64,000 bases of DNA, from contig NC_007796.1 of NCBI RefSeq assembly GCF_000013445.1, positions 1,462,936 through 1,526,935 on the forward strand, written 5' to 3'. The stretch comes from Methanospirillum hungatei JF-1. GTDB taxonomy: Archaea > Halobacteriota > Methanomicrobia > Methanomicrobiales > Methanospirillaceae. The translations under genes and the position numbers were made by a program. This document shows, piece after piece, positions 34,214 through 61,782 of this stretch. The stretch's first letter is position 1. Each line of letters begins with the position of its first letter. Below the pieces are notes generated by a model, which was not told the origin of the DNA, did not search any database, and worked only from the letters and a program-made list of their open reading frames with translations.

Positions 34214-34651
34214 TCAGCTTTTTTTCAGAACTATTTTTTCAAAACGCTTTTTCAGGGCAGGATCTGTGCAGCATTCCTCAATAAATTCGACTACTCCCAG
34301 GAGCTTACCATACGATTCCGGTGATAATCCATGTTCCATGATACAGGCATCATGGTCTGCAACGGTTCCATCTGCCCCTATTAGTTCAAGAAGCGTGCGA
34401 AGTATGGTGTGAGATTGTATGGTTCTCTCTGCAATACACCGCCCTTCATCAGTCAGGGTCACTCCCCCGTATGGCTCGTAATTCACCAGTCCTGCATCCT
34501 GTAACCGCTTGAATCCGTCGGTAACGGTGGCAGGGGTGATATGTAATGCCTGGGCGATGTCCCGTGATTTTGCATATCCTTTCTCTTCGGAGATTTCAAA
34601 GATCACTTCCAGGAGATCCTCGTTCCGTCTCGTTACTTTCTCTTCAGCCAT
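34214..34651 (-). CDS. DtxR/MntR-family metal-dependent repressor (first copy)
   Basis: 145 residues. A winged helix at residues 8-70 (EEKGYAKSRDIAQALHITPATVTDGFKRLQDAGLVNYEPYGGVTLT) is followed by the metal-binding dimer domain, with candidate ligands in ERTIQSHTILRTLL and DACIMEHGLSPE (Cys, Glu, His). There is no SH3-like third domain, as in MntR. Such proteins repress metal-uptake genes when loaded with Fe(II) or Mn(II). It stands 1.3 kb before the first binding-protein gene of the transport cluster and has a paralogue at 46.8 kb, so control of that cluster is plausible. I could not identify its operator. Confidence 0.9.
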   Translation of the reverse strand: MAEEKVTRRNEDLLEVIFEISEEKGYAKSRDIAQALHITPATVTDGFKRLQDAGLVNYEPYGGVTLTDEGRCIAERTIQSHTILRTLLELIGADGTVADHDACIMEHGLSPESYGKLLGVVEFIEECCTDPALKKRFEKIVLKKS

Positions 34652-35975
34652 GTCAGATATTATATGTAAAAATGCTCTGATACTACTCAGTCACGTTTGA
34701 CTCGGTAAACTATGTGTTCTAATCTACCATATAATAATAAGAATCAGAGCACAATCGCATTTAAGTTTAATGGAGAAAGCAACACTATTATGAGAAGAGG
34801 TATGCGATAAGAAAGAGCAATAAGACCGGTTACAATGGTACGACATAAAAGCACGGTATTACCGGTCAGGCTGATGCTCATATGCAAAGGCGATTTTTTC
34901 GAGGAATCTTATCATGTTGGACCTTGTTATTCTGCAACCTCCAGACAGATCCGGACATACCGGTTGTCTGATCAATACTTCCTTTTTTGGTTGATATGAG
35001 AGGTTCCCAAACCTTTTTTCAGAAAAGCATACTGGGTATAAAACCTCTCGTTCAAGGGGAGAGGATCTCAGAAATTCGCAGAAGAAACACACAATATGAA
35101 AAGTGTATCACTATCGGCTACCAAATCTTTCATAAAAATCCCCCTTTTTTGGGCAACCAGGTATCTTTACAAAGTCACCCCCTTAAAACCTTCAATTTGA
35201 CCCCTATTATCAAAAATACGGCCATTTGATATATCAGACTACCTGCGACTTAAGGTTGCACCAGATAAGCGAATTAAATCGATTATTTTGCTGAATAAAG
35301 GCTGAATCGCAGAGTTATAGAAGCACGCTATCATACATGAAATCTACCCATGAGTTAGTATACCTGAAGGTGAGATCCTGCAATAGAGGGCGGATATATG
35401 AATGTTATTTTTGAGAATATAAATATATATAATTTAATACAATGGCGTCGTATGGATGAAAAACGGTGATTGCATATTTTTCTCTTTAAGGTTTATCAAA
35501 CGTAATCGTTCTTCCCATGTGATCGGTTATTACAATCGGGGATTCAAAAGACAGAATTATCATAATTTCAGCACAGATTAGAAGAAATCCCAAAATTGAA
35601 TAAAACAGAATTTTGTTGCCATAATGAAATGATTCTCCATTGTTTGATTGCTCTCTGTCAGGTGCTGATTGTAAAAAAAGGATTTAGCAATAGTATGATT
35701 TTAAAAGTTTTATTCAAACTATCATTTTCTATACCCGATTTGGTCAATAATAAAGTAAGCCAAAATTGAGGACGTTTTTTCAATAAAAGCTAAATCATTG
35801 CTGAAACCAGATAGCCAATTTTCTCAATCACAGGTCCCAGCCTATCCTTCCATGCCAAGAATTGCAGAGAGGTGTTCCATCCTTACATTCACGATTTTTG
35901 TGCTAAGACAAAAAAACCGAGATTATATATTCTGAAAATATCATAGTATATTTGCAACCGTTGTGAGATGACTAA
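34652..35975. other. Long non-coding spacer, possibly decayed sequence
   Basis: About 1.3 kb with no gene I can support. Only short frames occur (for example 34859-35092 and 34987-35229) and neither has a recognisable domain or ribosome site. The arms GCTCTGAT (34674) and ATCAGAGC (34743) form an 8-bp inverted pair upstream of the DtxR gene. The stretch 35400-35970 is strongly AT-rich. It may hold decayed genes, regulatory DNA for both flanking genes, or both. Confidence 0.45.
35922..35931 (+). promoter_or_regulatory. Probable TATA box before first binding-protein gene
   Basis: The stretch ATTATATATT lies about 50 bases before the ATG at 35979, preceded by a purine-rich element (ACCGAG). A start site 25 bases downstream would leave a leader of about 30 bases containing GAGATGA, so promoter and ribosome site are mutually consistent. 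Confidence 0.45.
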
Positions 35976-35978
35976 TTG

Positions 35979-37121
35979 ATGAAAATACTAGATAAAAAAA
36001 CATGTTCTCATGTTACACGTATCAGACCATCATTATGCATTCTTTTGATCCTTTTCCTCACTGTCTGCATGGTTAGCTCAGCTGACACAAACAGCGGAGA
36101 TACTGGCAGTGTAACGATAACAGATGACTGGGGAAGAGAAGTTATCCTTGACCATCCCGCTGAACGAATTGTCTTTGGCCATACCGCTGCAGGTGAAGGA
36201 ATTCTTCTCGCTGGTGGCTGGGATAAAGTAGTCGGAAGGGACGCTTCAATCACGAACTACAAATTTTATCCAAATCTTGATTCACTTCCGGTAATAAACG
36301 GGCTGAATCAGGCATTTACCCTGGATTTCGAAAAAATTACTGAGTTAGAGCCGGACCTCGTAATTCTCCAAAAGAAATACTCAGACCGGGAAAACTTTGA
36401 TGTAATTGCTGAAACACTGGCACCGGACATTCCGGTTGTGGGTCTTGATTTCCTTGATCCGGAATCTGCTGATAGTATTCAAAAGTTAGGCGTTCTCCTT
36501 GGAACAAGTGATGTTGCTGATGAATATGTCAGATTTCATGATGATACCATCACAAGCATTCGGGAAAAAACAAGTTCACTTCCAGATACTGAAAAGCCAC
36601 ATGTATTTATCGATGCAGTCGGAATGGGTCCAGAACAGATTTCAACCTACGGAAAAGAGGCTTCGTTCTGGAATAAGATATGTGACATTGCTGGAGCAAA
36701 GAACGTAGCACAGGATTTACCTTCGGATTTTGTAAAAACAGTAGATCTGGAATGGCTGCTTGAACAGGATATTGACAGTATTGTTGTTCAGGTGTGGGAC
36801 AAAGAAAAGCCGGAATATGTTGGCTATACCGCAACACAGCCCGCAAAGGCAACTGAGGAAGCAGAGGTTATTATTCAGGAAATTTCAGAAAAAGATATAT
36901 ATTCACATACCGACGCAGTTCAGAACGGACAAGTATTTGTCCAGGACTATCAACTAGCAAATAACCCGAAATCTTTCATTGGAGTTGTGTACCTGGCCAA
37001 ATGGATCCATCCGGACCTGTTTGCAGACATTAATCCTGAGCAGATTCACCAGGAATACCTGAAGAAGTTTATTGGAACAGACCTTGATTTGAATAATGCC
37101 GGGATATTTGGGTATCCCTGA
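35979..37121 (+). CDS. FecB/BtuF-type metal-complex binding protein (copy 1)
   Basis: About 380 residues. A signal peptide (LCILLILFLTVCMVSSA, residues 16-33) is followed by a periplasmic-binding-protein-like domain of the iron-siderophore/cobalamin class, opening SVTITDDWGREVILDHPAERIV. It shares with the two paralogues at 38.3 and 43.2 kb the motif GGWDKVVGRD, the LEPDLVILQK strand and the C-terminal YLAKW(I/L/F)HPDLF block that ends in GYP. It should capture a metal chelate outside the membrane and deliver it to the FecCD permease at 40.3 kb. The methyltransferase gene follows after 16 bases. ATG preferred over a TTG three bases upstream. The ligand is unknown. Confidence 0.9.
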   Translation: MKILDKKTCSHVTRIRPSLCILLILFLTVCMVSSADTNSGDTGSVTITDDWGREVILDHPAERIVFGHTAAGEGILLAGGWDKVVGRDASITNYKFYPNLDSLPVINGLNQAFTLDFEKITELEPDLVILQKKYSDRENFDVIAETLAPDIPVVGLDFLDPESADSIQKLGVLLGTSDVADEYVRFHDDTITSIREKTSSLPDTEKPHVFIDAVGMGPEQISTYGKEASFWNKICDIAGAKNVAQDLPSDFVKTVDLEWLLEQDIDSIVVQVWDKEKPEYVGYTATQPAKATEEAEVIIQEISEKDIYSHTDAVQNGQVFVQDYQLANNPKSFIGVVYLAKWIHPDLFADINPEQIHQEYLKKFIGTDLDLNNAGIFGYP

Positions 37122-37137
37122 ATAATTTTTGAGAAAT

Positions 37138-38163
37138 ATGAATGAATTTCCTGTAATGAATGAGTCCCTGAATCGGATATATGAACAATCCCTCTCGATG
37201 ATTTCAGCAAATGCTCTTGCCGCAGGAGTGAAACTCTGTGTTTTCGATAACTTAAGGGAACCCGTTACCGTAGAATCACTGGCAAAGAAACAGGGATTAA
37301 ATCCCGGAGCGACACAGGTTCTCCTGGATACTCTTACATCTTGTGGACATCTTCATAAAAAAGATGGAATGTACAGGAATATGCCAGATACTGACAGTTT
37401 TTTGGTATCAAGTAGCCCCACGTATTATGGAGAGATCCTGCTTCGCGAATACCAGAGAAATTCAATAAGTCCTGATGTCATCATAGAGCGGGTCAAATCC
37501 GGACCGGTTCCCCAGTCACACACAAATGATATGTGTAACGAAGGGTTTTGGGAGAGATATGCCCGTTCCATGGCAAATTGGGAACGAGCCGGAACAGCCC
37601 AGATGCTGGCATCCGAAATATCCGGCCTCCCTGAATTTCAATCATTCAAAACCATGCTGGACCTTGGCGGGGGGCCAGGTCTGATGAGTATAGCGATTCT
37701 CAAAAACCACCCTACGATGACCGGGGTTGTATTTGATCAGCCTTCCGTTATCCCGGTTACGCGGCAGTTTATCGCAGAATATGGCATGGATAATCGTATG
37801 AGCACTCAGGGAGGAAATTATCTCGAAGAATCATTTGGATCCGGGTATGATCTTATCCTCTGCAGTTGTACGCTTAATTTTGCAAAATACTGCATGGATA
37901 CTATGGTAGAGCGGATTTATGATGCCCTTAATCCGGGGGGAATTTTTGTGAGTTTGCATGATGGGATGAATGAGGAAGGAACATATCCACGAGTTCATGT
38001 CCTGAACATGATGACCAGTGCGTTATCCGGGTTCTCCTGCAGTCTTGAAAAAGGGTTTATTGCAGATGCAATGAAAAATGCGGGGTTTTCCAGTGTCACC
38101 TCTAAGCAGGTCATAATGGATGTGGGACCATTTGAATTGGATATAGCCCGGAAAGACACATAG
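37138..38163 (+). CDS. O-methyltransferase-type SAM methyltransferase (copy 1)
   Basis: About 341 residues. An N-terminal winged-helix dimerisation domain (LAAGVKLCVFDNL, LAKKQGLNPGATQVLLDTL) is followed by a SAM-binding Rossmann domain with LDLGGGPGLMSIAIL as motif I and FDQPSVIPVTRQF as motif II. This is the layout of acetylserotonin/hydroxyindole-type O-methyltransferases. It lies 16 bases after the binding-protein gene and is almost certainly co-transcribed with it. A close paralogue lies at 60.8 kb (shared HPTM.GV.FDQP). The pairing suggests it methylates the ligand handled by the transporter or a step in its synthesis; that is inference. Start is ATG at 37138, with TTGAG upstream. Confidence 0.85.
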   Translation: MNEFPVMNESLNRIYEQSLSMISANALAAGVKLCVFDNLREPVTVESLAKKQGLNPGATQVLLDTLTSCGHLHKKDGMYRNMPDTDSFLVSSSPTYYGEILLREYQRNSISPDVIIERVKSGPVPQSHTNDMCNEGFWERYARSMANWERAGTAQMLASEISGLPEFQSFKTMLDLGGGPGLMSIAILKNHPTMTGVVFDQPSVIPVTRQFIAEYGMDNRMSTQGGNYLEESFGSGYDLILCSCTLNFAKYCMDTMVERIYDALNPGGIFVSLHDGMNEEGTYPRVHVLNMMTSALSGFSCSLEKGFIADAMKNAGFSSVTSKQVIMDVGPFELDIARKDT

Positions 38164-38275
38164 GAGTGAATCTTACATAGTGGTTTTTTTGAGTGTGAAT
38201 AGAAGATAAACTTTTTTGGATATAACTAAAGAATTTTAGATAAAGTAAAATAGAATTATCTTCAAATAAGTATTC

Positions 38276-39448
38276 ATGAAACGGTTATTACCTAAACCAT
38301 TCATTAAAGATTCACTGGAATACAAGAGTAAAAAATCAAATGGCTTTTTTATAATTACTTATTTCCTTATGATTATTGCCATCGCATCCTCTCCGGTGAG
38401 TTCTGCAGACATAGAAAAAACAGCGGGAGATTCCAGTATCACTATTATCGACGACTGGGGTAGAGAAGTGACCCTTGATAAACATGCTGAACGAATCGCA
38501 TTCAGCCATACAGCAGCCGGTGAAGGAATTCTCCTGGCGGGTGGATGGGATAAAGTTGTCGGTAGAGATGGCTCTCTTACAGATTCCAGGTTTTATTCAA
38601 ATCTAGACACTATTCCTGCTGTGAGCACTCCTAATCAGGCATTTTCTCTTGATTTTGAAAAAATTACGGAACTTCATCCTGATCTTTTCATCATCCAGAA
38701 ACACTATGATTCAAGGGAGCAGTTTGATGAAATTGCCAATAAACTTGAACCTGATACCCCGATAGTCGGCCTGGATTTTCTTGAACCTGAAAATGCTGAC
38801 AGTATCAAAAAACTGAGCATTTTAATCGGAACAGAGCAAGTCGCTGATGATTATGTTAATTTTCATGATGAGATCATTAAAAACCTGAAAGAAAAAACAG
38901 ATACATTATCACCAGACGAAAAGCCAAATGTTTTTTTAAAAGGTGGAACTACTGATAAAATTAGCACATTTGGAAGAGATGCTTCATTCTGGAATAGAAT
39001 GTGTTCTCTTGCAGGTGGAAAAAATATCGCTGACGGTCTTCCCGGTGATAATCAAGAGGTAGATCTTGAGTGGCTTACCCAGCAGGACATTGACACTATT
39101 GTTGGCTCATGCAGTTATAGAAATTACCCGGAATCTTTTGGTTATCTGGCAACCGAACCATTCCATGCATCTGAAAAAGCTGACGAGATAATCATTGATA
39201 TTAAGAATAACGAGATTTTTTCACATTCAGATGCAGTTTTAGATGATAATGTCTTCTTACTGGAAGGAACGATGATAAGCAATCCAAAAGCATTCATTGG
39301 ATCTGCTTATCTGGCAAAATGGCTCCATCCAGACCTCTTCAGCGATCTCGATCCAGAACAAATCCACCAGGAATATTTGAGCAGATTCATTGGAACTGAT
39401 TATGATCTTAAGAATATTGGATTATTCGGATACCCGGCTAATTCATAA
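38276..39448 (+). CDS. FecB/BtuF-type metal-complex binding protein (copy 2)
   Basis: 390 residues, a close paralogue of the protein at 35.9 kb. A rather long N-terminus precedes the signal helix (FFIITYFLMIIAIASSPVSSA). The mature domain begins SITIIDDWGREVTLDKHAERIAF and ends in YLAKWLHPDLF and GYPANS. GGWDKVVGRDGSLTD is conserved. An ATG-only start at 38276 has no clear ribosome site; a later start before the signal helix cannot be excluded. It is 112 bases after the methyltransferase gene and 11 bases before the next methyltransferase gene. It likely presents the same or a related ligand to the permease at 40.3 kb. Confidence 0.88.
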   Translation: MKRLLPKPFIKDSLEYKSKKSNGFFIITYFLMIIAIASSPVSSADIEKTAGDSSITIIDDWGREVTLDKHAERIAFSHTAAGEGILLAGGWDKVVGRDGSLTDSRFYSNLDTIPAVSTPNQAFSLDFEKITELHPDLFIIQKHYDSREQFDEIANKLEPDTPIVGLDFLEPENADSIKKLSILIGTEQVADDYVNFHDEIIKNLKEKTDTLSPDEKPNVFLKGGTTDKISTFGRDASFWNRMCSLAGGKNIADGLPGDNQEVDLEWLTQQDIDTIVGSCSYRNYPESFGYLATEPFHASEKADEIIIDIKNNEIFSHSDAVLDDNVFLLEGTMISNPKAFIGSAYLAKWLHPDLFSDLDPEQIHQEYLSRFIGTDYDLKNIGLFGYPANS

Positions 39449-39459
39449 AACCTACAAAA

Positions 39460-40299
39460 ATGGCTGCTGATTCTAACATTAACTGGAATGAGATCTGGAA
39501 AAACACATTTGAGAATCACATGATCTCCCGTGGTCAGGGGGAATATGCTCTCATGTGGGATACAAAGGAAAAAGCCGAAAAATATCTCCAGATGATGAAT
39601 CAAAACCCTGAAAGGACTGAAAAGATTATCTCGCAACTTTCTTTCTCTCCCGAATTCAGGATTCTTGATATTGGGGCAGGTCCTGGCACTCTGTCAATTC
39701 CCATCTCTGGAAAAGTGCATCATGTTACCGCTGTAGAACCAGCCATCGGGATGGCAGAACTGCTAAGGGAACGAACGAAAACAGAAACGAAAGGAAATAT
39801 CGATATTGTTCAGAAAAGATGGGAAGATATCGATATACAAAAGGACCTGACTCCCCCCTATGATATGGTCATTGCTTCGTATTCTCTGGTTATGCTGGAC
39901 CTGAAACAGGCCATTGAAACCATGCAAAAAGTATGCTCCGGCGAGATATGGCTGTTCTGGATGGCTGGGATGAACAGCTGGGAAGACCATATGAAAAAAC
40001 TCTGGCCGGTTATTCATGGGAGATCCTTTACCTCACCACCGAAAGCCGATATCCTGTTTCAGGTTCTGTACCAGATGAATATCTATCCAAATATGTCGGT
40101 CATGGAAATGGAACATGTAAAGACATATCCTACCATTGAGGAGGCAGTTCTGGAGACGAGAAAACAACTGAACTGCTCCGCAGATTATGATGATCAGATT
40201 CGGGAACTAGTACTCCCAGGCCTGATTTACCAGAATGGGACATACATCAATCAGGAACGGTACAAGAGCGTTTGTTTTTCATGGAAAAATGAAACATGA
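39460..40299 (+). CDS. Class I SAM-dependent methyltransferase (copy A)
   Basis: 279 residues. The SAM-binding core has motif I RILDIGAGPGTLSIPIS near residue 70 and the acidic end of strand 2 in VTAVEPAIGMAELL. Later strands include YDMVIASYSLVMLD. It has no winged-helix domain. It is paralogous to the protein at 42.2-43.1 kb: both begin INWxxxWKxxF, share RWED(I/V), and have (W/Y)LFWMAGMNSW or YLIWFSGVNSW. The gene starts 11 bases after the second binding-protein gene and sits 44 bases before the permease gene, so it belongs to the transport operon. The substrate is unknown; an SAM-dependent change to the transported complex or its free ligand is the simplest reading. Confidence 0.83.
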   Translation: MAADSNINWNEIWKNTFENHMISRGQGEYALMWDTKEKAEKYLQMMNQNPERTEKIISQLSFSPEFRILDIGAGPGTLSIPISGKVHHVTAVEPAIGMAELLRERTKTETKGNIDIVQKRWEDIDIQKDLTPPYDMVIASYSLVMLDLKQAIETMQKVCSGEIWLFWMAGMNSWEDHMKKLWPVIHGRSFTSPPKADILFQVLYQMNIYPNMSVMEMEHVKTYPTIEEAVLETRKQLNCSADYDDQIRELVLPGLIYQNGTYINQERYKSVCFSWKNET

Positions 40300-40343
40300 A
40301 CTAATTTTTTTATCAGGATGAATTTTGAAATTTTGAGATCTCC

Positions 40344-41426
40344 ATGACAGCAGAATCTACCCACACACAGAACCAGCCGGAATCCATATATGACATGTAT
40401 GCACAGTTTATCCGAAGGAAATTACTCTTTATTCTTCTTTTGATTGGTATTATCATCATTCTTGTTGGCATTGCCGCTTCAACCGGATCAGCAAATCTGT
40501 CTTTATATGAAGTGTATGCTGCTCTTGTCGGAAGATTTTTCTCATGTGGTCCGGAGAGTTCCTGGGTTGCTGATGTATGCCTCTGGAAACTTCGGTTTCC
40601 ACGGATATTCATGGCAATTTTCGCAGGTATTGCCCTCGGTGCCACCGGAGTCGTTATGCAGAGCGTTCTGAAGAACCCCCTGGCAGATCCCTACATGATG
40701 GGTATTCAGTCTGCTGCAGGATTTGGTGCATCCCTTGCGATTATATGTGGAGCAGGGATATTCGGAGGATCATATTTGATTGCCGGGAATGCCTTTTTAT
40801 TCTCACTCATCTCGGTTGGAATCATTATTACACTGGCTGATATGAAAGGAGCGTCTGCTGAAACGATGCTTTTAACCGGAATCGCAGTCATGTTTCTTTT
40901 TTCTGCCATGACGACCTTTATTCAGTATTTTGCCGAGGCAGAAGCGGTAAAAAGTGCAATGTTCTGGGCTGTTGGAGATCTTGGGAAGACCAGTTGGGAT
41001 GATTTTTATGTGGTCATCCCCCTTGTAGCCATCTGTTTTCTTTACCTGCTCTGGAAAACCTGGGACATGAATATCCTTGCATCTGGTGATGAAACCGCGA
41101 AAAGTCTTGGAATTCCGGTCAGAAGGGTCAGAATATCGGTGATGATTGTCTCATCTCTGCTGGTTTCAGGAGTTGTCTGTTTTATCGGGGCCATAGGATT
41201 TGTCGGTCTTGTATCGCCCCATATCTGCCGGATTATTATCGGAGGGAATAACCAGTACCTGCTTCCTGCAGCCGGACTTATGGGAGCAATTCTTCTTATT
41301 GTATCTGATACGATTGCCCGGACCGTGATGAGTCCTGCAATTATTCCAGTGGGTGTGGTTACGGCATTTCTTGGTGTTCCCTTCTTTATCTACCTGATCA
41401 TGTTCAGAAAGGGGGAATTCTGGTGA
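40344..41426 (+). CDS. FecCD-family ABC transporter permease
   Basis: 360 residues, a typical FecCD/BtuC permease. About ten transmembrane helices begin LFILLLIGIIIILVGIA. Family landmarks are RFPRIFMAIFAGIALGATGVVMQSVLKNPLADP, GISAG-like VQSAAGF, and the coupling region SGDETAKSLGIPVRRVR, which docks on the ATPase. The helical pattern PAAGLMGAILLIVSDTIAR is also typical. It imports iron chelates, haem or corrinoids in known relatives. It overlaps the ATPase gene by four bases and serves, I infer, all three nearby binding proteins, because no second permease is present. Confidence 0.93.
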   Translation: MTAESTHTQNQPESIYDMYAQFIRRKLLFILLLIGIIIILVGIAASTGSANLSLYEVYAALVGRFFSCGPESSWVADVCLWKLRFPRIFMAIFAGIALGATGVVMQSVLKNPLADPYMMGIQSAAGFGASLAIICGAGIFGGSYLIAGNAFLFSLISVGIIITLADMKGASAETMLLTGIAVMFLFSAMTTFIQYFAEAEAVKSAMFWAVGDLGKTSWDDFYVVIPLVAICFLYLLWKTWDMNILASGDETAKSLGIPVRRVRISVMIVSSLLVSGVVCFIGAIGFVGLVSPHICRIIIGGNNQYLLPAAGLMGAILLIVSDTIARTVMSPAIIPVGVVTAFLGVPFFIYLIMFRKGEFW

Positions 41427-42199
41427 CTCTTTCATTTCATGGGATATCCCTATCCTATGGGACAAATCAGGTTCTTCATGACCTCTCATTTGAATTTCAG
41501 GATGCCGAGATTGTTGCCATTGTCGGACCGAATGGTTCAGGGAAAAGTTCCCTTGTCCGGTGCCTGAATAAACTGGTAACTCCCCAGTCGGGAGAGGTTA
41601 TTGTCGGGGGAGAAAAGGTGTATGGGATGCATGCTCGGGAAGTTGCGAAAATTTTCGGATATGTTCCACAGAATTTTCAGGATACCTTCCCGGCAACGGT
41701 TATCGATACCATCCTGATGGGAAGAAAACCCTATGCAACCTGGAGATCCGGCAAAAGTGATATCCTGAAAGTAACCGAAGTGATGAAACTGCTACACCTT
41801 GAACAGTTTGCACTCCGGTATCATTCAGAACTCTCCGGCGGACAGAGGCAGAAAGTGATGATTGCCCGGGCATTTGCACAGGAGAGTAAAGTTCTGCTCT
41901 TCGATGAACCGACGTCACAACTGGACATAAAACATCAGCTTGAGATAATGGATCTGGTCAAAGAGACCGTCCGGATGAAAAAGATTCTTGCGATTCTTGT
42001 GGTCCATGACCTGAACCTTGCATCCCGGTATGCTGATCGAATAATTATGCTAAAGGACGGGAGAATTCATGCAGTTGGGGATCCAAAGAACGTGCTAACC
42101 GAAGATAATATCCGGGCTGTCTATGATGTTGATAGTCTGATCATGCATGACGGGGAGGTGCCATGTGTTGTTCCGAAAAAAAGGTTACATGCGGGATAG
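41423..42199 (+). CDS. FecE/BtuD-type ABC transporter ATPase
   Basis: 258 residues. Walker A GPNGSGKSS near residue 36, Q-loop in VPQNFQDTFP, signature LSGGQRQKV near 139, Walker B VLLFDEPTSQLD near 158 and the His switch in VVHDLN. It starts at a GTG that overlaps the stop of the permease gene by four bases, so translational coupling is expected. It powers import through the FecCD permease. The gene that follows, another methyltransferase, is on the opposite strand and ends 31 bases away. Confidence 0.95.
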   Translation: MTLSFHGISLSYGTNQVLHDLSFEFQDAEIVAIVGPNGSGKSSLVRCLNKLVTPQSGEVIVGGEKVYGMHAREVAKIFGYVPQNFQDTFPATVIDTILMGRKPYATWRSGKSDILKVTEVMKLLHLEQFALRYHSELSGGQRQKVMIARAFAQESKVLLFDEPTSQLDIKHQLEIMDLVKETVRMKKILAILVVHDLNLASRYADRIIMLKDGRIHAVGDPKNVLTEDNIRAVYDVDSLIMHDGEVPCVVPKKRLHAG

Positions 42200-42230
42200 T
42201 TCTTCAAGTTTGCTTGAACAGACTCTTGTT

Positions 42231-43106
42231 TCAAGCCCGAATAAGATGATTTTTCTGTTCCTTTTTCCTTTCAGTTTTCCAGCTGACAATACTCATCGTA
42301 ATTAAGGGGTTCCAGATATAAAACCCATCAAGGGATATGAGGTTTTGGAAAACCCATTGTTTAATGAATTCATGTTTTCCAGGATAGGAATGACCGCATC
42401 TTTGCTCTATCTCAATAACCGCTTTATCAATTGATTCAAACTTTTCATAAAATGGTTGACGGATATGAATAATATCAGGGTAAATTCCGATTTCATTTAA
42501 GACCAAAACAAGAAGGTTCGTTTTTGGACTTTCATGGTAATGCATACCACAGGCACCGGTACAAATGCTTTTCATCATCTGATCCCAGGAATTTACACCA
42601 GAAAACCAGATCAAGTAAATTGTTCCTGCTGATACTGCCATCATTTTTTTAAGACTGCTCCGAATATCAGGCATTCCCAAAGAAAAACAAGCAATAATAT
42701 GATCATATGATCCCAATTGTTCAGGTAACACATCCTCCCACCGGGAATGGATGATTTTAATATTTGAAAATCCCTGATCTGCAATGTTATCAGAAAGAAC
42801 TGATACTATTCCGACAGCAGGTTCAACAACCGTAACATGAGCACCTTTTTGTGCTAAAGGGAGGGCAATAGTTCCTGGACCGCCACCAATGTCAAGAACC
42901 GCCTCTCCTTCTCTGATAGGGATTCTGGATAATATCGGAGTATAAAATGATTTTTGTTCCTGAGTTTTTTTCCAAAATATGAATGCTTGTTCCTTAGATG
43001 ACCAAAAATCTGATAGATTTCTATTTGCCTGGCATTGCCAATTCAGGTTGAATTCTGATTTCCAGACCCCAGACCAGTTAATTTTACTTAAATCCATCGC
43101 TGTCAT
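42231..43106 (-). CDS. Class I SAM-dependent methyltransferase (copy B)
   Basis: 291 residues, a paralogue of the protein at 39.5 kb. Motif I is AVLDIGGGPGTIALPLA near residue 70, followed by VTVVEPAVGIVSVL, HSRWEDVLP and YDHIIACFSLGMPD. The region IYLIWFSGVNSW aligns with the same block in copy A, and the N-terminus keeps INWSGVWKSEF. It is transcribed leftward, convergent with the ATPase gene. It is divergent from the third binding-protein gene (137 bases between starts), so the pair likely shares a control region. The substrate is unknown. Start at 43106 or the ATG nine bases later. Confidence 0.82.
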   Translation of the reverse strand: MTAMDLSKINWSGVWKSEFNLNWQCQANRNLSDFWSSKEQAFIFWKKTQEQKSFYTPILSRIPIREGEAVLDIGGGPGTIALPLAQKGAHVTVVEPAVGIVSVLSDNIADQGFSNIKIIHSRWEDVLPEQLGSYDHIIACFSLGMPDIRSSLKKMMAVSAGTIYLIWFSGVNSWDQMMKSICTGACGMHYHESPKTNLLVLVLNEIGIYPDIIHIRQPFYEKFESIDKAVIEIEQRCGHSYPGKHEFIKQWVFQNLISLDGFYIWNPLITMSIVSWKTERKKEQKNHLIRA

Positions 43107-43243
43107 AATTTTAGGATGTTCCTTATTGTGAAGCCAGGATGCTTTTACGAATTATTTGTATTAGATCAATATATATTGTATTGGGGAGAACCAACTAGAG
43201 TTAGACTATTCATACGAGGATACGTCTTACTCCTGGAGATTAT

Positions 43244-44344
43244 ATGAAACAATTATGGCGAGTAACGCTTTGGTGTATCCTGATAGCATGTATCTGCCTT
43301 TGTTCAGCAGAGGGATCCGTAACGGTAACTGATGATCTTGGGCGTGAGGTCACATTGGAAAAACCAGCAGAAAAAATAGCTTTCGAGCATTATGCACCCG
43401 CTGAAGCAATCAAGATCGTAGGTGCCTGGGATAAACTAGTAGCCCGTGACGGGTATACTACTGATCCAGAATTTTTCCCAGACCTGGATAAAATTCCAGC
43501 AATCAGCCCAGTAAAACCAACCGGGAAGTTGGATCTTGATTATGAAAAAATCTATGAATTAAAACCGGATCTTATGATTATCCAGAAACAGGACTGGAAT
43601 AATTATCAATACAATGACCTTTTTAAAAAGTTAGAACCAGAGATACCTGTAGTGATTTTGGATTTCATAGATCCACTCACCCAGGCAGAAAGCATTGAAA
43701 AACTCGGAAAACTAACAGGCACAGAAACTAGTGCTCAAGCATATGCAAGTTTTGTCAGGGGTATAACCTCCGATATTAATGCTAAAACATCAATCCTTTC
43801 TGATGAGGAAAAACCGGATGTCTTTTTTAAAGGTCCTGCTTACAAGCCAGAGCAGATATTTACCTACGGAAATGGCATGAAATTATGGGCAAACATGCTG
43901 AATCTCGCAGGTGGAAGGAATGCCGTGGATAATCAAAGTGCTGCATGGTTTGAAGTGGATTCAGAATGGCTCATTAAAAAACCTATTGATATCATGGTAG
44001 TGCATAATCGTGAAGCCATGTATCCAGATGTGTTCGGATATAATGCGAAGGATCAGGATGCAGCCAAAGAAAAGGCCAATTCTCTTATTACAAACCTAAC
44101 TTCAAACCCGGTTTTCTCCGGTAATGACGCGGTTAAAAACCAAAAGATATACCTGATTGCTGATCCACTGACCGGAACACCCAGATCAATTATCGGCGTT
44201 GCATACCTGGCAAAGTGGTTCCACCCGGATCTCTTCAATGATTTAAATCCGGAAGAGATACACCAGAAATATCTGGATTTCATCGGTGCCAATTATGATT
44301 TGAAAAATACAGGTTTATTTGGATATCCAGGTGAATCATCATAA
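43244..44344 (+). CDS. FecB/BtuF-type metal-complex binding protein (copy 3)
   Basis: 366 residues. Signal peptide ILIACICLCSA (residues 12-22), mature domain opening SVTVTDDLGREVTLEKPAEKIAF and ending in YLAKWFHPDLFNDL and GYPGESS. It is the most diverged of the three. GAWDKLVARDGYTTD replaces GGWDKVVGRD, and AFEHYAPAEAI replaces the FGHTAAGEGI-like block of the other two, so its ligand preference may differ. A GGAG lies seven bases before the ATG. It is divergently paired with methyltransferase copy B and has no permease of its own. Confidence 0.88.
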   Translation: MKQLWRVTLWCILIACICLCSAEGSVTVTDDLGREVTLEKPAEKIAFEHYAPAEAIKIVGAWDKLVARDGYTTDPEFFPDLDKIPAISPVKPTGKLDLDYEKIYELKPDLMIIQKQDWNNYQYNDLFKKLEPEIPVVILDFIDPLTQAESIEKLGKLTGTETSAQAYASFVRGITSDINAKTSILSDEEKPDVFFKGPAYKPEQIFTYGNGMKLWANMLNLAGGRNAVDNQSAAWFEVDSEWLIKKPIDIMVVHNREAMYPDVFGYNAKDQDAAKEKANSLITNLTSNPVFSGNDAVKNQKIYLIADPLTGTPRSIIGVAYLAKWFHPDLFNDLNPEEIHQKYLDFIGANYDLKNTGLFGYPGESS

Positions 44345-45616: not shown

Positions 45617-46366
45617 TTACTGGTGAGGTGATCCCGGACTTGAAAATGCCAGGAGCCTGACTCCGGTAACCTGCTGAAATGTCGCACCCTGTCCGATGGC
45701 ATTGAGCACAGCATTCTCGTCAATAATTTTGGATCCGGCAATGATGTTTGCTCCATGATCAAAGAGAACCGGAGATATGGGCGTACTTGGACCAAGAATG
45801 ACCACAAGTGCTTCCGGTTTACATAGCCCAAGCAGATCATCAAGAGTGTGATTGATCAGAGAACTTCCGGTAATTGCCACAACATCTGCCTGGGGAATTA
45901 AATCAGAAGCTGCATGGGCCGGATGATCTCCTTCTAACGGGTTTTGTTCTATCACCCAGAGATTCTTTACTGCCTTTTTTACCTTTGGAATGAATGGGAA
46001 ATGACCAACGATTGCCACATTTTTTCCTGCACCCCGCTCCATCAGAACTTCAGACGCATTCATCTCCACGGCATCATTTTCATTATACTCCATCAGTGAA
46101 TTAATCGCAGCTATTCCAATTCCTGCTTCTATGGTATTTTCAGATAGGGCATACTGTGCCAGTTCCTGAGCACTCTTCTGGTGAAGAGTCCCTACATTCC
46201 GGACATGAGTGGTGTGATCATGGGGTTTATCCGGAGCAAAGGTTGTCGCGAGACCGCAATGACTGCTGCACACAGCGGTCCAATGAACACCAACCATCAC
46301 CGAACGGACAGTAACATCTTTTTTTGGCAGATTAGACAGTAATTCTTCAATAATGTGAGTACTCAT
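45617..46366 (-). CDS. DUF4213/DUF364 protein, possible metal-chelation enzyme
   Basis: 249 residues. The N-terminal half matches the DUF4213 enolase-N-like region (SVMVGVHWTAVCSSHCGLATTF). The C-terminal half matches the DUF364 Rossmann-like domain (VAIVGHFPFIPKV, QADVVAITGSSLINHTLDDLL, LVVILGPSTPISPVLFDHGA). The one solved structure of the family was interpreted as having a possible heavy-metal-chelation role; its reaction is not established. Start at the ATG 46366, with GAGGTT upstream. It is transcribed leftward, convergent with the kinase gene and divergent from the DtxR gene 391 bases away. Its position supports a role in metal handling. Confidence 0.85.
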   Translation of the reverse strand: MSTHIIEELLSNLPKKDVTVRSVMVGVHWTAVCSSHCGLATTFAPDKPHDHTTHVRNVGTLHQKSAQELAQYALSENTIEAGIGIAAINSLMEYNENDAVEMNASEVLMERGAGKNVAIVGHFPFIPKVKKAVKNLWVIEQNPLEGDHPAHAASDLIPQADVVAITGSSLINHTLDDLLGLCKPEALVVILGPSTPISPVLFDHGANIIAGSKIIDENAVLNAIGQGATFQQVTGVRLLAFSSPGSPHQ

Positions 46367-46757: not shown

Positions 46758-47174
46758 ATGATGGAAAAGAGAACATCACCAAGAAATGAAGATCTTCTGG
46801 AAGAAATTTATAAGATCTCACTGGAGAAGGGGTATGCCAAATCCCGCGACATTGCAGGTGCACTCATTATCTCCCCGGCAACCGTGACTGAACGGTTTAA
46901 AAAATTAGAGGAAGCAGGCTATGTAAATTATGAAAGGTACGGCGGAGTGACCCTGACACCCGAAGGAATACGTATTGCCGAACGGACGATTCAGTCCCAC
47001 TATGCAATCCGAAGACTTCTTGAACTGGCCGGAGTTGAAACAACAATCGCCAACCGGGATGCATGCATCATGGAGCATGGCCTTTCACCTGATTCGTATA
47101 AAAAACTGGTCCCATTTATTAAATTCATTGAGGAAAGATGCAAAGGTATGGAGATGAAAAAGCAATTATCCTGA
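46758..47174 (+). CDS. DtxR/MntR-family metal-dependent repressor (second copy)
   Basis: 138 residues, a close paralogue of the regulator at 34.2 kb: same GYAKSRDIA, SPATVTERFKKLEEAGYVNYERYGGVTLT and DACIMEHGLSPDSY blocks. Candidate metal ligands in the last block are Cys, Glu and His. It lacks the SH3-like third domain. It sits between the divergent DUF364 gene and the large activase-like gene, so it may control either or both. Having two copies, one at each side of the binding-protein/methyltransferase genes, suggests they share targets or respond to different metals. Confidence 0.9.
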   Translation: MMEKRTSPRNEDLLEEIYKISLEKGYAKSRDIAGALIISPATVTERFKKLEEAGYVNYERYGGVTLTPEGIRIAERTIQSHYAIRRLLELAGVETTIANRDACIMEHGLSPDSYKKLVPFIKFIEERCKGMEMKKQLS

Positions 47175-47370: not shown

Positions 47371-50300
47371 ATGAACACATTAACATCCCAAATGAAATCA
47401 GATCCGGACCATTCGGATCTCGCTGATGAAAAGATAAACCCAGAAACATACAGTATCGGTATTGATATCGGATACTCATCGATCAAAATCGGCCTGGTGA
47501 ACAGTTCTTTGCAACCAGTATATGCAGATTACATCCTTCATAAAGGAAAAATCAAAGAAACCCTGCAGAAAATACTTGCAACGCTTGCAGGGCAGTATGA
47601 TCCAACATCAATAACACATGGGGCGGTAACCGGAAGTGAATCAAAATGGATATCCAAAGATCAGACCATTCATCACGTCAATGATGTATCGGCACTCCTT
47701 GAAGGGAGCCTGTGCCTGGATGATTCGGTTCATTCAATCATTGATATCGGGGGACAGACCGCCAGGTATATTACCGGATTTACGAGCAGGGAAAAATCAT
47801 GCATCGAAATTTCTATGAACTCCAATTGTGCTGCAGGGACGGGTTCATTTCTTGAAGAACAGGTGTCACGGCTGAATCTGTCTATTGAGGATTATGCAGC
47901 CTATGCGGCTAAAAGTTCAAGCATTCCACGAATTGCCGGGAGATGCAGTGTATTTGCCAAAACCGACATCATCCATCATCAGCAGGAAGGTGTTCCAGTT
48001 GAGGATATTCTCCAGGGTCTTGCATATGCTCTTATCAGGAATTACCGGGGAGCAGTAATCAAAAAACTGCCCATTACAAGACCAGTATTCTTCGCTGGCG
48101 GAGTAGCACACAATGACGCTATTGTCAATGCCATATCAGACATCCTAGATCTCTCTGATGGAAAACTCATCGTTTCAGATTTGAGTGGAAATGCTGCAGC
48201 AATAGGAACGGCAATTATTGCTAAGCAGAATAATCTGACAATCTCACCTGATGAATTATCCTCGATTCTCACCCGCAACGAATGCAATTCAAACAATTCG
48301 GAACTCAGCCTGCCAGCTCTTGCCCGGTTCGGAAAGGAAGACTGCACAAACAAACATATCTGTGCTCCAATCTCTTCAGGAGATGAGATAACCGATTGTT
48401 TTCTAGGCATTGATATCGGTTCAACCAGTACAAACCTGGTTCTCATGAATGAAAACAAGGAGATTGTTGCATTCAGGTATCTAAGAACTCTGGGAGACCC
48501 ATTCCATGCAGTCAGTACCGGGCTTGCTGACCTTGGAAGAGAATTCAAAGACAAGGTACGGGTTATCGGAGTTGGAACAACCGGTTCAGGACGGTACATG
48601 ATTGCAAGGCTGTTCGGAGCTGATGTTGTGAAAGATGAGATCACCGCCCAGGCAAGAGCTGCAATCACGCTTGATCCCCTGGTAGATACCGTGTTTGAAA
48701 TCGGCGGTCAGGACTCCAAGTTTATCAGCCTGAGAAATGGTGTCGTCACTGACTTTCAGATGAATAAGATATGTGCTGCAGGTACCGGATCATTTATCGA
48801 AGAGCAGTCCAAAAAATTCGATATTCCCATTGATGATTTTGGAGATAAGGCACTTGCCAGTACAAAACCGGAGTATCTTGGTGAACGGTGCACCGTATTC
48901 ATCGAAACCAGTATTGCCGCCTGCCTTGCCAATGGAACTAGTACTGAAGATATCGTATCAGGCCTGTGCTATTCCATTGTGAAAAATTATCTGAACCGGG
49001 TGGTCGGACAGAAGAAGATCGGAGATCGGATATTCCTGCAGGGAGGTATCGCCTATAACCAGGGAGTGATCAACGCATTCCGTTCACTGACCGGGAAAGA
49101 GATCATTGTTCCTCCATTCTTTAGTGTGACCGGAGCCTATGGAGCGGCAATCCTGACCTGCGAAGAGATGGGATCACGGAAGACCTCATTCAAAGGATTT
49201 GACCATATCGCCTCATCCGGTGAGGGAGAGATAGAAAAAGTAGCGAATTCCGATTCAGGATCTGATTTTGAAGAGATGGTCACGGACCTTATCTTTGAAG
49301 GGTATGATGGAACACTGGATCCCAGTAAAAAGACCATCGGAATCCCACGGGCTCTCTTCACCTATGGCATGTATCCAATGTTTGACGCCTTTTTCCGAGA
49401 GCTGGGGTATAATGTCCTCCTGTCAGATCCGACAAGTGAAAAGACCATCTGGCTCGGACAGGATTATTCACTTGACGAGACCTGTTACCCGGTCAAACTG
49501 ATCAATGGTCATGTGGCAGAGCTGGTGGAGAAAAAGGTGGACTACATCTTTTTCCCAGACCTGTACACGGTTGTTCACCCAAACTCCCATACCCGCCAGG
49601 ATTTTGGCTGCCCGTACATGCAACTTGCATTCAAACTGGTAAACCGGGCAATGGAACTTGATACGAAAGGCATCAAACTGCTTGCTCCTACCATCGGTTT
49701 TAGTCTTGGTGAACAATTCATGAAAAACAGTTTTATGAATCTTGGAACGATGCTTGACCGGACAACGGAGGAAACAGGGAAAGCCCTTCAGAAAGGGATG
49801 CAGGCATTCCATGATTTTGAAACCCGGATTATGGAAAAGGGGAAACAAATCGTGCAGGGCCTTCAGGCTGATGAAAAGGCATTTGTCCTGATTTCAAAAA
49901 CCTACGGGGTAGCAGATCCTGTCTTAAACCTTGGTATCCCCGGAAAACTGAAAGAGATGGGATATAAAACCCTTGCATTCTATAACCTCCCGGAATGTGA
50001 TGTTTCGAGCGAACACCCAAACATGTTCTGGCCATTTGGTCAGCATATCCTCGAAGCGGCGCAGGTTGTCAGGCAACATCCAAACCTGTATGCAATCTTC
50101 CTGACCCATCATGGATGTGGTCCGGATACCGTATTCACCCACTATTTCAAGGAGATTATGGGAGATAAACCATATCTGAACATAGAAGTTGATGAACATT
50201 CTTCAGGAGTCGGTGTGATAACCAGACTTGAAGCATTCGTAAACAGTCTGAACCATATACCCTCACAGCCTGCAGAGGATATGAATTGTTACCCGGAACG

Positions 50301-51435
50301 TGTTCCTCACCCGAAAGCCGGGATAACAACCAACGGTCTTGCATTTTCCAGTTCCTGTGAGTATTACCTGCCTGATCTCTATCCATATTCCGGACTTTTT
50401 TGCGAACATTTCAGTAAAAAAGGAATCCGTGCTCACCCGTTTCCACCTACGAGTGAAAAGTCCATTGATGAAGGGAGAAAACACACCATAACAAATGAAT
50501 ACTTCTCAATGGCTGCACTTGTCGGTGATGTACTGAATATTCCGGACATTCGAAACAAAGGAGATATCCCAAAAGTTCTCTTCATTCCACAGAACGAGGG
50601 AGCAGAAGTTGACGGGCAGTATAACAGGTTTATACGCACGATTCTTGATGAAGAAGGGCTATCTCACGTCTGGGTTGAATCTCCGTTCATTGAAGATATC
50701 ATATACGAGGATGAGAGTTTTCTCACATCACTCTTCTGTCTCCTCATTGCAGGAGACTTAATTCTGGTGACCCCCGTGTCTGACCGGGCCAGGTACCTGA
50801 ACCAGATGAAAGGTATGATACAGAGAAATGAACTTGATATCCGTTCTCTGAAAAGAGTCGCCTGGGAGATTTCAATGATCCTGCAGTCAGCACCTCCGGA
50901 AAAAACCATCCTTGCCATAGGTGAGCCACTCATTCTCTACAATGATATGCTGAATAACCAGATCCTGAATGGATTAGAAGAGAACAACGTCCGGGTTATG
51001 TTTGCACCTTTGAGCGAATGCTTCTGGCAGACCTGGAAGGATTACATTCTCCAGTACGGGAACGACAGGACTGATGTCCTCTTAAAGAAACTTGCCATAC
51101 TCGAAGATTATATGAATCAAATCCATCAGGTACTTGGTGTATTCAGCCCATATGAAGAGAAAACAGAAGACCTTATCAGACTCGCAGATGCCACCACCGG
51201 GTACTATGCCGGTGGATTTGGAAGATACAGGGAGGCAAAAGTTCTTGGGTTACCGTCATCGGTCAAAGGCGTGATAACCGTTTCATCAATGTATGAAAAC
51301 ACCGGAATCCTGCTTAATACTCTTCATAAAGGATTTGAATCAGACCACCAGAAGCCGGTGCTAAACCTGACATTTGACGGAACACACAATGACCATGACA
51401 AAAGCAAGGTTGAATCATTTCTCTACTATCTGTAA
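47371..51435 (+). CDS. Fused double ASKHA activase with DUF2229-type reductase region
   Basis: 1,354 residues. Two BcrA/BcrD-HgdC-like ATPase modules in tandem: the first from residue 27 (IGIDIGYSSIKIG, CAAGTGSFLEEQ), the second from about 344 (LGIDIGSTSTNLVL, IGGQDSKF, CAAGTGSFIEEQ, RCTVFIETSI). In the activase family the CAAGTGS and RCxVF Cys residues bind a [4Fe-4S] cluster at the dimer interface. After residue 650 come the DUF2229-type region (IGIPRALFTYGMYPMF, DETCYPVKL, FGCPYM) and a further region with HHGCGPDT, like the dehydratase/reductase partner. Such fusions use ATP to push electrons to very low potential; the acceptor is unknown. DGC-type gene follows after 22 bases. Confidence 0.85.
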   Translation: MNTLTSQMKSDPDHSDLADEKINPETYSIGIDIGYSSIKIGLVNSSLQPVYADYILHKGKIKETLQKILATLAGQYDPTSITHGAVTGSESKWISKDQTIHHVNDVSALLEGSLCLDDSVHSIIDIGGQTARYITGFTSREKSCIEISMNSNCAAGTGSFLEEQVSRLNLSIEDYAAYAAKSSSIPRIAGRCSVFAKTDIIHHQQEGVPVEDILQGLAYALIRNYRGAVIKKLPITRPVFFAGGVAHNDAIVNAISDILDLSDGKLIVSDLSGNAAAIGTAIIAKQNNLTISPDELSSILTRNECNSNNSELSLPALARFGKEDCTNKHICAPISSGDEITDCFLGIDIGSTSTNLVLMNENKEIVAFRYLRTLGDPFHAVSTGLADLGREFKDKVRVIGVGTTGSGRYMIARLFGADVVKDEITAQARAAITLDPLVDTVFEIGGQDSKFISLRNGVVTDFQMNKICAAGTGSFIEEQSKKFDIPIDDFGDKALASTKPEYLGERCTVFIETSIAACLANGTSTEDIVSGLCYSIVKNYLNRVVGQKKIGDRIFLQGGIAYNQGVINAFRSLTGKEIIVPPFFSVTGAYGAAILTCEEMGSRKTSFKGFDHIASSGEGEIEKVANSDSGSDFEEMVTDLIFEGYDGTLDPSKKTIGIPRALFTYGMYPMFDAFFRELGYNVLLSDPTSEKTIWLGQDYSLDETCYPVKLINGHVAELVEKKVDYIFFPDLYTVVHPNSHTRQDFGCPYMQLAFKLVNRAMELDTKGIKLLAPTIGFSLGEQFMKNSFMNLGTMLDRTTEETGKALQKGMQAFHDFETRIMEKGKQIVQGLQADEKAFVLISKTYGVADPVLNLGIPGKLKEMGYKTLAFYNLPECDVSSEHPNMFWPFGQHILEAAQVVRQHPNLYAIFLTHHGCGPDTVFTHYFKEIMGDKPYLNIEVDEHSSGVGVITRLEAFVNSLNHIPSQPAEDMNCYPERVPHPKAGITTNGLAFSSSCEYYLPDLYPYSGLFCEHFSKKGIRAHPFPPTSEKSIDEGRKHTITNEYFSMAALVGDVLNIPDIRNKGDIPKVLFIPQNEGAEVDGQYNRFIRTILDEEGLSHVWVESPFIEDIIYEDESFLTSLFCLLIAGDLILVTPVSDRARYLNQMKGMIQRNELDIRSLKRVAWEISMILQSAPPEKTILAIGEPLILYNDMLNNQILNGLEENNVRVMFAPLSECFWQTWKDYILQYGNDRTDVLLKKLAILEDYMNQIHQVLGVFSPYEEKTEDLIRLADATTGYYAGGFGRYREAKVLGLPSSVKGVITVSSMYENTGILLNTLHKGFESDHQKPVLNLTFDGTHNDHDKSKVESFLYYL

Positions 51436-51457: not shown

Positions 51458-51877
51458 ATGAACACATCTACCAGTGATACGAAAAATAATGAATCGCACG
51501 GACATCCATCAAACGAACCGGGTTCAAAAACCGGTTCTGATCATATTATCATCCCCTGTTGTGGTCAGGCAAACACCGGACAGATATCCAATGAGGTTGC
51601 AATGGTCCTGTCAGATGAAGGATTCGGGATGTATTACTGTACTGCTCTTCTTGCAACGAAACCAGAGGTTATTATAAGCCGAATGCAGGGAACGGAGAAG
51701 ATCATCGCCATCGATGGATGCACTATAGCCTGTGCAAAGAAAATTGCATTGCAGGCAGGATTTAAGGTGAACCACCATGTTCTGGTTACTGACCTTGGGA
51801 TTGAAAAGAAAAAAGGGCGTAACTTTACTTCTGAACAGGTTGCATGCGTCATTGATGTTATCCGGAAGGGATGCTGA
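51458..51877 (+). CDS. DGC-domain cysteine protein, putative zinc-binding
   Basis: 139 residues. A polar N-terminal tail of 30 residues precedes a DGC-type domain named for its conserved Asp-Gly-Cys: IIPCCGQANTGQISNEVA near residue 31 and IAIDGCTIACAKKIA near 88, with a further Cys in VACVIDVIRKGC. The family is annotated as putative zinc binding; no reaction is known. It lies 22 bases after the large activase gene with GAGGT upstream, so both are one transcription unit. The Cys-rich motifs would suit a metal or sulfur carrier for the activase, which is inference. Confidence 0.82.
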   Translation: MNTSTSDTKNNESHGHPSNEPGSKTGSDHIIIPCCGQANTGQISNEVAMVLSDEGFGMYYCTALLATKPEVIISRMQGTEKIIAIDGCTIACAKKIALQAGFKVNHHVLVTDLGIEKKKGRNFTSEQVACVIDVIRKGC

Positions 51878-52086
51878 CCTTCAGGACATGACAATTCCCT
51901 CCTCTTGCAATCCAGATATTATATGATTTCACCTGCAGCATTCAGTTATTCTTTCGTTGGAATGCATATACTCCGAGAGTTACAATTATTGACACATGTA
52001 CAACAGACAGGATCTATAGTTAAATATTAACCGTAATAAAAACAACCGTTAGACATAATGAAAGGAAAACCCAACATGTGTTTATC

Positions 52087-52566
52087 ATGAAAAATATCTG
52101 GAAATTTGCTCCTGAGGATGGAAAAGAGAGAGGGCTACTCACCCTTCTCGTCCTTCATTTCCTGGAGAAAAAACCACAATCTGGATATGAACTGCTAAAG
52201 GAGATCGATGAGACAACCGATAGTACCTGGGTGCCAAATAAAGGGACTTTGTATCCTCTTCTGAAATCATTGGAGCAGGAGGGCTTGATACAAGTGAAAG
52301 AGGTAGGCAAACGATCAAAGATTACGTTTGAACTAACAGAAGATGGAAGACAGATGCTCTCCACTCTGAAAGGGAAAAAAGAAGAAGCAGAGACGAGGGT
52401 TACTTTCTTCAAAAAATTGCACCGGGAAGTATTTGGCGAAGAAAATTTCTCTTTCATCAATTTTATGATGGATGTCAGGTTTTACGTCGAAGATCTTCCT
52501 GAAGAGAAAAAACCGGCAGCAATTAAAATTTTACAGACAGCCTTTGACGAGATAAAAAATTTATAA
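52087..52566 (+). CDS. PadR-family transcriptional regulator
   Basis: About 159 residues. A winged helix with the PadR pattern: LLTLLVLHFLEKKPQSGYELLKEID, PNKGTLYPLLKSLEQEGLI, GKRSKITFELTEDGR. The C-terminal part is a helical dimerisation region. The ATG at 52087 is preferred; a GTG at 52078 would add three residues. It heads a run of four same-strand genes (TrmO-like, FmdE-like, methyltransferase; gaps of 50, 13 and 15 bases) and likely controls them. The signal is unknown. The AT-rich 52020-52060 region upstream carries two ACCGT-type elements that could be promoter parts. Confidence 0.88.
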   Translation: MKNIWKFAPEDGKERGLLTLLVLHFLEKKPQSGYELLKEIDETTDSTWVPNKGTLYPLLKSLEQEGLIQVKEVGKRSKITFELTEDGRQMLSTLKGKKEEAETRVTFFKKLHREVFGEENFSFINFMMDVRFYVEDLPEEKKPAAIKILQTAFDEIKNL

Positions 52567-52616
52567 CAAGGCACCACAGACCCATTTCTCATATTTCACA
52601 AAACACATAGGATACC

Positions 52617-53159: not shown

Positions 53160-53172
53160 AGGAGATCATACC

Positions 53173-53985: not shown

Positions 53986-54000
53986 GAGGAGAGTGATCCC

Positions 54001-61779: not shown

Positions 61780-61782
61780 GGA

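Follow-up and report, generated by a model that had tools for sequence, protein, structure and literature searches.

A FecCD-type importer locus with three SAM methyltransferases in Methanospirillum hungatei JF-1, and a possible role for ligand methylation in metal uptake

A stretch of 64,000 nucleotides in the genome of Methanospirillum hungatei JF-1 (the window: positions 1,462,936-1,526,935 of a single contig of 3,544,738 bp) contains a locus in which the genes of a type II ATP-binding cassette (ABC) importer stand among those of three S-adenosylmethionine (SAM) methyltransferases. Three extracytoplasmic binding proteins (BP1, BP2, and BP3), three methyltransferases (MT1, MT2, and MT3), one FecCD-type permease and one ATPase are encoded. 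The operon BP1-MT1-BP2-MT2-permease-ATPase runs in one direction and is followed by the divergent pair MT3 and BP3 (Table 1; coordinates without a further label are those of the whole window). With slightly less than even confidence, we read the locus as encoding a metal-regulated importer of metal chelates, together with cytoplasmic small-molecule methyltransferases that would act on the imported cargo.

According to this model, the three binding proteins, presumably differing in specificity, would feed the single permease and ATPase, and in the cytoplasm the organic portion of what they deliver would be methylated by MT1, MT2, and MT3. The methylated donor atom would most plausibly be a thiolate sulphur or an amine. 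Methylation would weaken the binding of the metal, so that the metal is released and the spent ligand is kept from rebinding it (freeing or trapping the cargo). A reductase resembling the ATP-driven DCCP, an FmdE protein and TrmO-like proteins, whose genes have the same promoter element, would probably serve the same pathway. The model draws on the statistics of linkage between methyltransferases and importers and the metal-related contexts in which the linkage recurs, on the regulators and promoter element of the locus, and on the likeness of the methyltransferases to enzymes that methylate sulphur.

The earlier note, made from the letters alone, had described three pairs of binding protein and methyltransferase, and coordinates and Pfam matches bear this out: 16 bases lie between BP1 and the first ATG of MT1, 11 between BP2 and MT2, and 137 between the starts of MT3 and BP3. 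PF01497, FecCD and ATPase genes occur together, all with scores above curated cut-offs, as in type II (FecCD/BtuCD) importers. The methyltransferases are of two subtypes, again as had been claimed: MT1 carries PF08100 and PF00891, while MT2 and MT3 are of the Methyltransf_25 type and paralogous (31% identity over 277 amino acids). The binding proteins are 42-58% identical to one another, BP1 and BP2 being the closest pair (58%). The claim of a single permease and ATPase holds for this locus only; further FecCD sets lie elsewhere in the genome, and the matching locus of M. stamsii has two.

We mapped PF01497 genes and MT2-family genes in 12 complete genomes from the class and compared the distances between them, derived from the search coordinates, with those after 5,000 rotations. 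Of the 66 MT2-family genes, 34 were no more than 5 kb from a PF01497 gene, whereas the rotations averaged 2.2 and never exceeded 18. When the three Methanospirillum genomes are left out, the count is 11 of 36, where 0.75 would be expected. The linkage of the family to importers is thus well beyond chance. Of 199 genomes in the class, 182 carry the family, and all eight copies in the M. hungatei genome are at ABC-importer loci (Table 1). An SBP_bac_5 gene (G000:C1:228124-229203) beside two tandem MT2-family genes has an in-frame TAG in this genome and is likely a broken copy.

Importer labels were also counted within 4.5 kb of 145 MT2-family members, a non-random sample. They were of the FecCD/BtuF type in 62 cases, MacB/FtsX in 25, an SBP_bac_5 importer in 10 and a P-type ATPase in 2, and they track the tree of the family (35 changes, against 69 in shuffles). 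The tie between methylation and uptake that the earlier note had proposed is well supported. Such pairs, with importers of several types, were met with in Methanomicrobiales, Methanosarcinales and Methanocella, and in a few bacteria too. The literature searched, a collection thin in subscription journals, yielded no direct description of it. One might suppose instead that the methyltransferases have RNA or other metabolites as their substrates and stand in a metal-stress island as unrelated neighbours, since some MT2-family copies have no importer nearby and the window also encodes homologues of the TrmO-like tRNA methyltransferase. The rotation test, the clustering of context labels across the tree, and the return of the pairing beside other kinds of importer and in bacterial genomes make this very improbable. 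Two side observations concern the family's other partners. A MinD/CooC-like P-loop NTPase of about 260 amino acids is frequent among them (present at 25 of the 62 copies with a FecCD/BtuF context), and in most sampled Methanoregulaceae (L265, L186, L188, and others) a core MT2-family copy lies behind Yip1 and MacB/FtsX-type ABC genes.

The companion genes in other genomes suggest metals as the cargo. In Methanosarcinales, the MT1 and MT2 families flank an SBP_bac_5 importer whose substrate-binding protein (SBP; in Methanolobus) matches NikA best and also matches CntA. In this such loci resemble NikABCDE and CntABCDF, the importers of nickel and of opine metallophores; at the locus studied here, the SBP is of another type, and the genome lacks the PF03059 gene for a synthase of the nicotianamine synthase (NAS) type. 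A heavy-metal P-type ATPase adjoins or follows other MT2-family copies, and two CobW proteins follow a copy in Anaerolineae. Other bacterial metagenome-assembled genomes (MAGs) have TonB-dependent receptors near their copies, which implies a cargo exceeding the size that porins admit; for all bacterial contigs, the MAG assignment was taken as given.

Regulation points the same way. Two DtxR-family regulators, 64% identical and both with CxxEH, the motif of iron-type DtxR regulators, flank the locus; the first has a 76% identical orthologue in the same place in M. stamsii. About 360 non-coding bases upstream of its gene (34661-35020) are 77% identical to M. stamsii and may be a leader or small RNA. 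An element with the core AACCGTT precedes BP1, the second DtxR gene, the gene for a 1354-residue protein and the PadR gene. In G019, from another family of the order, it stands before the binding-protein gene, upstream of the 1354-residue gene and before PadR. It also precedes BP1 in M. stamsii, and in G058, of the same family as G019, it lies upstream of the 1354-residue gene, with weaker variants. This common element ties the operon to the predicted ATP-driven reductase and to the FmdE and TrmO-like genes. Because the window has 13 copies of the heptamer and about 8 would be expected, the evidence rests on its positions, not on its number. Scores of a wider motif are circular, as that motif was derived from the very sites found, and most of what emerged when the upstream regions were scanned for palindromes was AT-rich noise. 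The AACCGTT-centred element is a candidate operator and lies partly inside a longer inverted repeat, as in a relative at L105 13395 (CAATAGTTT...AAACTATTG).

The 1354-residue protein has two acyl-CoA dehydratase activase domains and DUF2229, from which it is predicted to be an ATP-driven, DCCP-like reductase. Its gene is syntenic behind the BP-MT1 operon in both G019 and G058. The order FecCD-ATPase, 1354-residue protein, DGC, PadR, TrmO-like, FmdE is retained in G058 and largely in G019, where FmdE is also kept. An MT2-BP pair in G109 is adjoined by two HGD-D subunits and an activase, a split version of this predicted type of reductase. Two TrmO_N (TsaA) proteins of the window (52617-53159 and 56631-57176) are 29% identical, and one is within a Mo/W-type ABC operon; TrmO-like proteins may here have a metal-related role.

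What might be methylated is suggested by the folds. The AlphaFold2 model of MT2 (predicted local distance difference test, 93) matches TmtA (Z 17.8 over 238 residues) and GtmA (Z 17.4 over 240) along most of its chain. TmtA and GtmA bis-methylate the dithiol gliotoxin. In fungi, reduced gliotoxin is a zinc chelator that is inactivated by GtmA methylation (PMC10533825), and by analogy we hypothesize that methylation of an imported ligand frees its metal. MT1 is closest to DsyB by sequence; the top group of its fold matches comprises DsyB (Z 23.3), RedM and BchU, and DtpM, which methylates holomycin, ranks somewhat lower (Z 19.9). MT1 has the PF00891 architecture; at the LHDW-type motif it reads SCTLNFA, without the catalytic histidine of O-methyltransferases, which would fit an acceptor whose methylation requires no base, for example a thiolate, a thioether or an amine. 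TmtA, GtmA and DtpM thus resemble the enzymes of the locus in fold and, by inference, in a chemistry that inactivates a chelating dithiol; they differ in being enzymes of fungal or streptomycete self-protection, 12-18% identical and with no tie to an importer.

Two side observations bear on MT1. A second MT1-type methyltransferase (38% identical to MT1; 60760-62847) adjoins an EamA transporter, and this pair and a DtxR homologue are conserved in G137 (L108). At L230, L236, L238, and L240, several MT1-type and other methyltransferases, LCM- and ICMT-like ones among them, lie with a nitroreductase, an MMPL transporter and pairs of ABC exporters in apparently biosynthetic clusters.

The reductase and the likeness of MT1 to DsyB (an S-methyltransferase and its best solved relative) also allow another reading, namely that the locus handles organometals, organo-sulphur or organo-selenium compounds, the role suggested for SAO (selenocysteine-assisted organometallic) operons of bacteria, and that its chemistry consists of methyl transfer and a reduction driven by ATP. 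The DCCP-like reductase has the common promoter element and conserved synteny, and in bacteria DCCP and SAO genes co-occur near methyl-selenium and methyl-sulphur clusters (PMC10418091). SAO systems resemble the locus in joining an ABC importer to organometal chemistry, with DCCP genes reported nearby; however, no selenoprotein, SaoL or corrinoid protein was identified at the locus, and no SAO model is among the NCBIfam matches of the scanned proteins. No MerB-like gene was recognised there either, nor a conserved cysteine set of the ArsM kind. We regard this reading as improbable. Arsenite methylation of the ArsM type was rejected: no cysteine occupies an invariant or nearly invariant column, the best cysteine column having one in 26 of 37 rows.

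A corrinoid or another tetrapyrrole might be the cargo, with the ring or the bound metal methylated during salvage. The permease finds its best matches in BtuC models, though below their cut-offs (209 of 334 and 208 of 461 bits); MT2 and MT3 match the corrinoid protein-associated CpaM weakly (36 and 40 bits, below the NF043040 threshold of 180) and CbiT weakly too; and the fold matches include BchU and ChlM. Against this, BtuF is a poorer match to the binding proteins than are SBP models of the siderophore type and YiuA-like structures. BP3 reaches 23 of the 234 bits required for BtuF, and the ATPase 129 of the 281 required for BtuD. A cobalamin riboswitch, which is a supporting and not an obligatory criterion for BtuFCD, was absent at the gathering threshold from four bacterial loci of the family (L180, L191, L192, and L193), and the NikA-type and P-type ATPase contexts do not agree with this reading. 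We accordingly give a corrinoid cargo a low probability.

The locus shares with the importers of siderophores, haem and vitamin B12 a PF01497 binding protein, a FecCD permease and a cognate ATPase in one operon, and differs from them in its one to three dedicated SAM methyltransferase genes and in a BP1 without the YiuA-type basic triad. At the positions of YiuA Arg64, Arg165 and Arg223, BP1 has alanine, leucine and a gap; BP2 and BP3 have a lysine near the third only. A catechol or hydroxamate siderophore, as bound by cluster A-II SBPs, was rejected on account of the triad missing from BP1.

A metallophore might also be made at home, tailored by the methyltransferases, exported, loaded with metal and retrieved through the FecCD importer. 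Clusters of the MT1 family in f10 genomes, with several methyltransferases, ABC-exporter pairs, MMPL and a nitroreductase, look biosynthetic, and according to a published proposal DUF364 acts on chelators (PMC2954201). A DUF364 gene lies 1.3 kb downstream of BP3, and a metal ABC transporter context has been published for the DUF364 protein Dhaf4260 (PMC2954201); the domain is found in few of the related loci, however. Neither a scaffold-building enzyme nor an obvious exporter was recognised in the window cluster, and neither the NAS-type synthase PF03059 nor IucA/IucC (PF04183) was found in nine genomes including M. hungatei, searches in which the controls were positive (for PF03059, in M. acetivorans). 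On these absences, a metallophore made by NAS or by NRPS-independent siderophore (NIS) synthetases was rejected, and we consider home-made metallophores rather unlikely overall.

The history of the locus seems to be other than the earlier note had supposed. BP1, BP2, and BP3 belong to one clade of 16 members (support 95), the others being mostly beside MT1-type genes. MT2 and MT3 fall in a clade of 41 (support 98), 36 of which are in a FecCD/BtuF context, and are not sisters within it; MT3 is on a long branch, and its exact placement is unsure. G019 and G058 have an operon BP-MT1-BP-FecCD-ATPase without MT2, and G493 and G503, from the same phylum, have BP-MT1-FecCD-ATPase; Methanosarcina, too, seems to possess a BP-MT1-FecCD operon. 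Since the binding-protein clade is partnered by MT1 and the two MT2-type genes are separate, the trees indicate that the binding proteins arose by duplication and that the methyltransferases were recruited separately; they do not support the duplication of a whole unit of binding protein and methyltransferase.

In M. stamsii, the matching locus has two transporter sets, 84% alike, and five binding proteins; the window permease is 93% and 83% identical to the two copies there. In M. hungatei, the non-coding stretch upstream of BP1 holds the remnant of a further binding-protein gene. Judging from both, one transporter common to three binding proteins is likely a reduced state.

Several points weigh against the metal-chelate importer that we favour. 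The earlier note's statement that the ligand cannot be deduced from the sequence stands, though several candidates have been cut back. Class I folds are common to all types of acceptor, so the likeness to TmtA, GtmA and DtpM is suggestive only: BchU and ChlM, which act on tetrapyrroles, and N- and C-methyltransferases score equally well. All matches of MT2 being class I enzymes (histamine methyltransferase and other small-molecule methyltransferases are also among those of near-full length), its fold says no more than "small molecule." The Foldseek ranking does not discriminate between types of acceptor, and nicotianamine synthase and ArsM are not near the top of the VIA-align list, which by itself is uninformative. 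Of the 145 MT2-family genes sampled, 46 lack a labelled importer within 4.5 kb, and the MacB context is not obviously one of uptake. Free drift of methyltransferases away from binding proteins in relatives would, according to the earlier note, speak against their linkage, and here the picture is mixed. BP3 of M. stamsii (84% identical to BP3) has no adjoining methyltransferase, but the closest homologue of MT3 (52%, in G109) is still divergent from a BP-FecCD-ATPase operon, with the binding protein 131 bases away; the permease there is 51% identical to that of the window and the binding protein about 27% to BP3.

Table 1. Features of the locus, its surroundings and related loci (window coordinates unless a genome or L locus is named)
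Feature	Position	Strand	Basis or remark
DtxR-family regulator, CxxEH metal site	34214..34651	-	76% orthologue, same place in M. stamsii
Remnant of a further binding-protein gene	35490..35721	-	70% DNA identity to start and promoter of a binding-protein gene, M. stamsii L076 8703-8935
AACCGTT core of promoter-proximal element, upstream of BP1	35956..35962	+	side-by-side reading of upstream regions
BP1, PF01497 binding protein, 380 aa	35979..37121	+	Pfam, 118 bits
MT1, class I SAM methyltransferase, Dimerisation PF08100 and Methyltransf_2 PF00891	37129..38163 (first ATG 37138)	+	Pfam
BP2, PF01497 binding protein, 390 aa	38276..39448	+	Pfam, 92 bits
MT2, Methyltransf_25-type SAM methyltransferase, importer-associated family, 279 aa	39460..40299	+	Pfam
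FecCD-type permease	40344..41426	+	Pfam, 299 bits
ABC ATPase of FecCD importer	41423..42199	+	Pfam; 4-base overlap with permease end
MT3, Methyltransf_25-type SAM methyltransferase, MT2 paralogue	42231..43106	-	Pfam and sequence comparison
BP3, PF01497 binding protein, 366 aa	43244..44344	+	Pfam, 103 bits
DUF364/DUF4213 "putative heavy-metal chelation" protein	45617..46366	-	Pfam
Second DtxR-family regulator, CxxEH, 64% to first	46758..47174	+	element upstream
1354-aa protein, two acyl-CoA dehydratase activase domains and DUF2229	47371..51435	+	domain search
DGC-domain protein	51458..51877	+	syntenic in G019 and G058
PadR regulator, TrmO_N (TsaA) protein, FmdE protein, further SAM methyltransferase (54001-54618)	52078..54618	+	
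Further AACCGTT copies	46642 (second DtxR), 47353 (1354-aa gene), 52044 (PadR)		
AACCGTT-centred element in relatives	L105 7853, 13395, 18348; L106 13464; L076 12255		
MT2-family copies MT2 and MT3	this locus		adjoining binding proteins
Two MT2-family copies	231-232 kb of genome		between SBP_bac_5 genes
MT2-family copy	245 kb importer cluster of genome		binding protein of same cluster 5 kb away
MT2-family copy	271 kb of genome		behind BP-FecCD-ATPase
MT2-family copy	2,259 kb of genome		inside binding-protein cluster
MT2-family copy	2,270 kb of genome		divergent from FecCD-ATPase
MinD/CooC-like P-loop NTPase examples	L069 8005-8778, L118 2349-3134, L149 7893-8651		

Two further features of the window stand apart from the locus: a protein of 2364 amino acids with long TPEPTEEVTPEPT-type repeats (908-8002), and a group II intron with its reverse transcriptase (58544-60535; Rfam RF02012 at 60388-60535).

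The demand of methanogens for nickel, cobalt, iron, and molybdenum or tungsten is high, and little is known of how they acquire these metals in mud rich in sulphide. That one methyltransferase family is linked to importers of several kinds hints at a chemical step during metal uptake. It is conceivable, if on balance doubtful, that the locus represents an undescribed route for trace metals, common among methanogens and shared by a few bacteria, in which a chelate would be imported, its ligand methylated at the expense of SAM (and perhaps reduced with ATP) and its metal released, the methyltransferase being a dedicated partner of the importer. If so, a large group of unnamed methyltransferases would gain a function, as would their FmdE, DUF364, DGC and TrmO-like companions.

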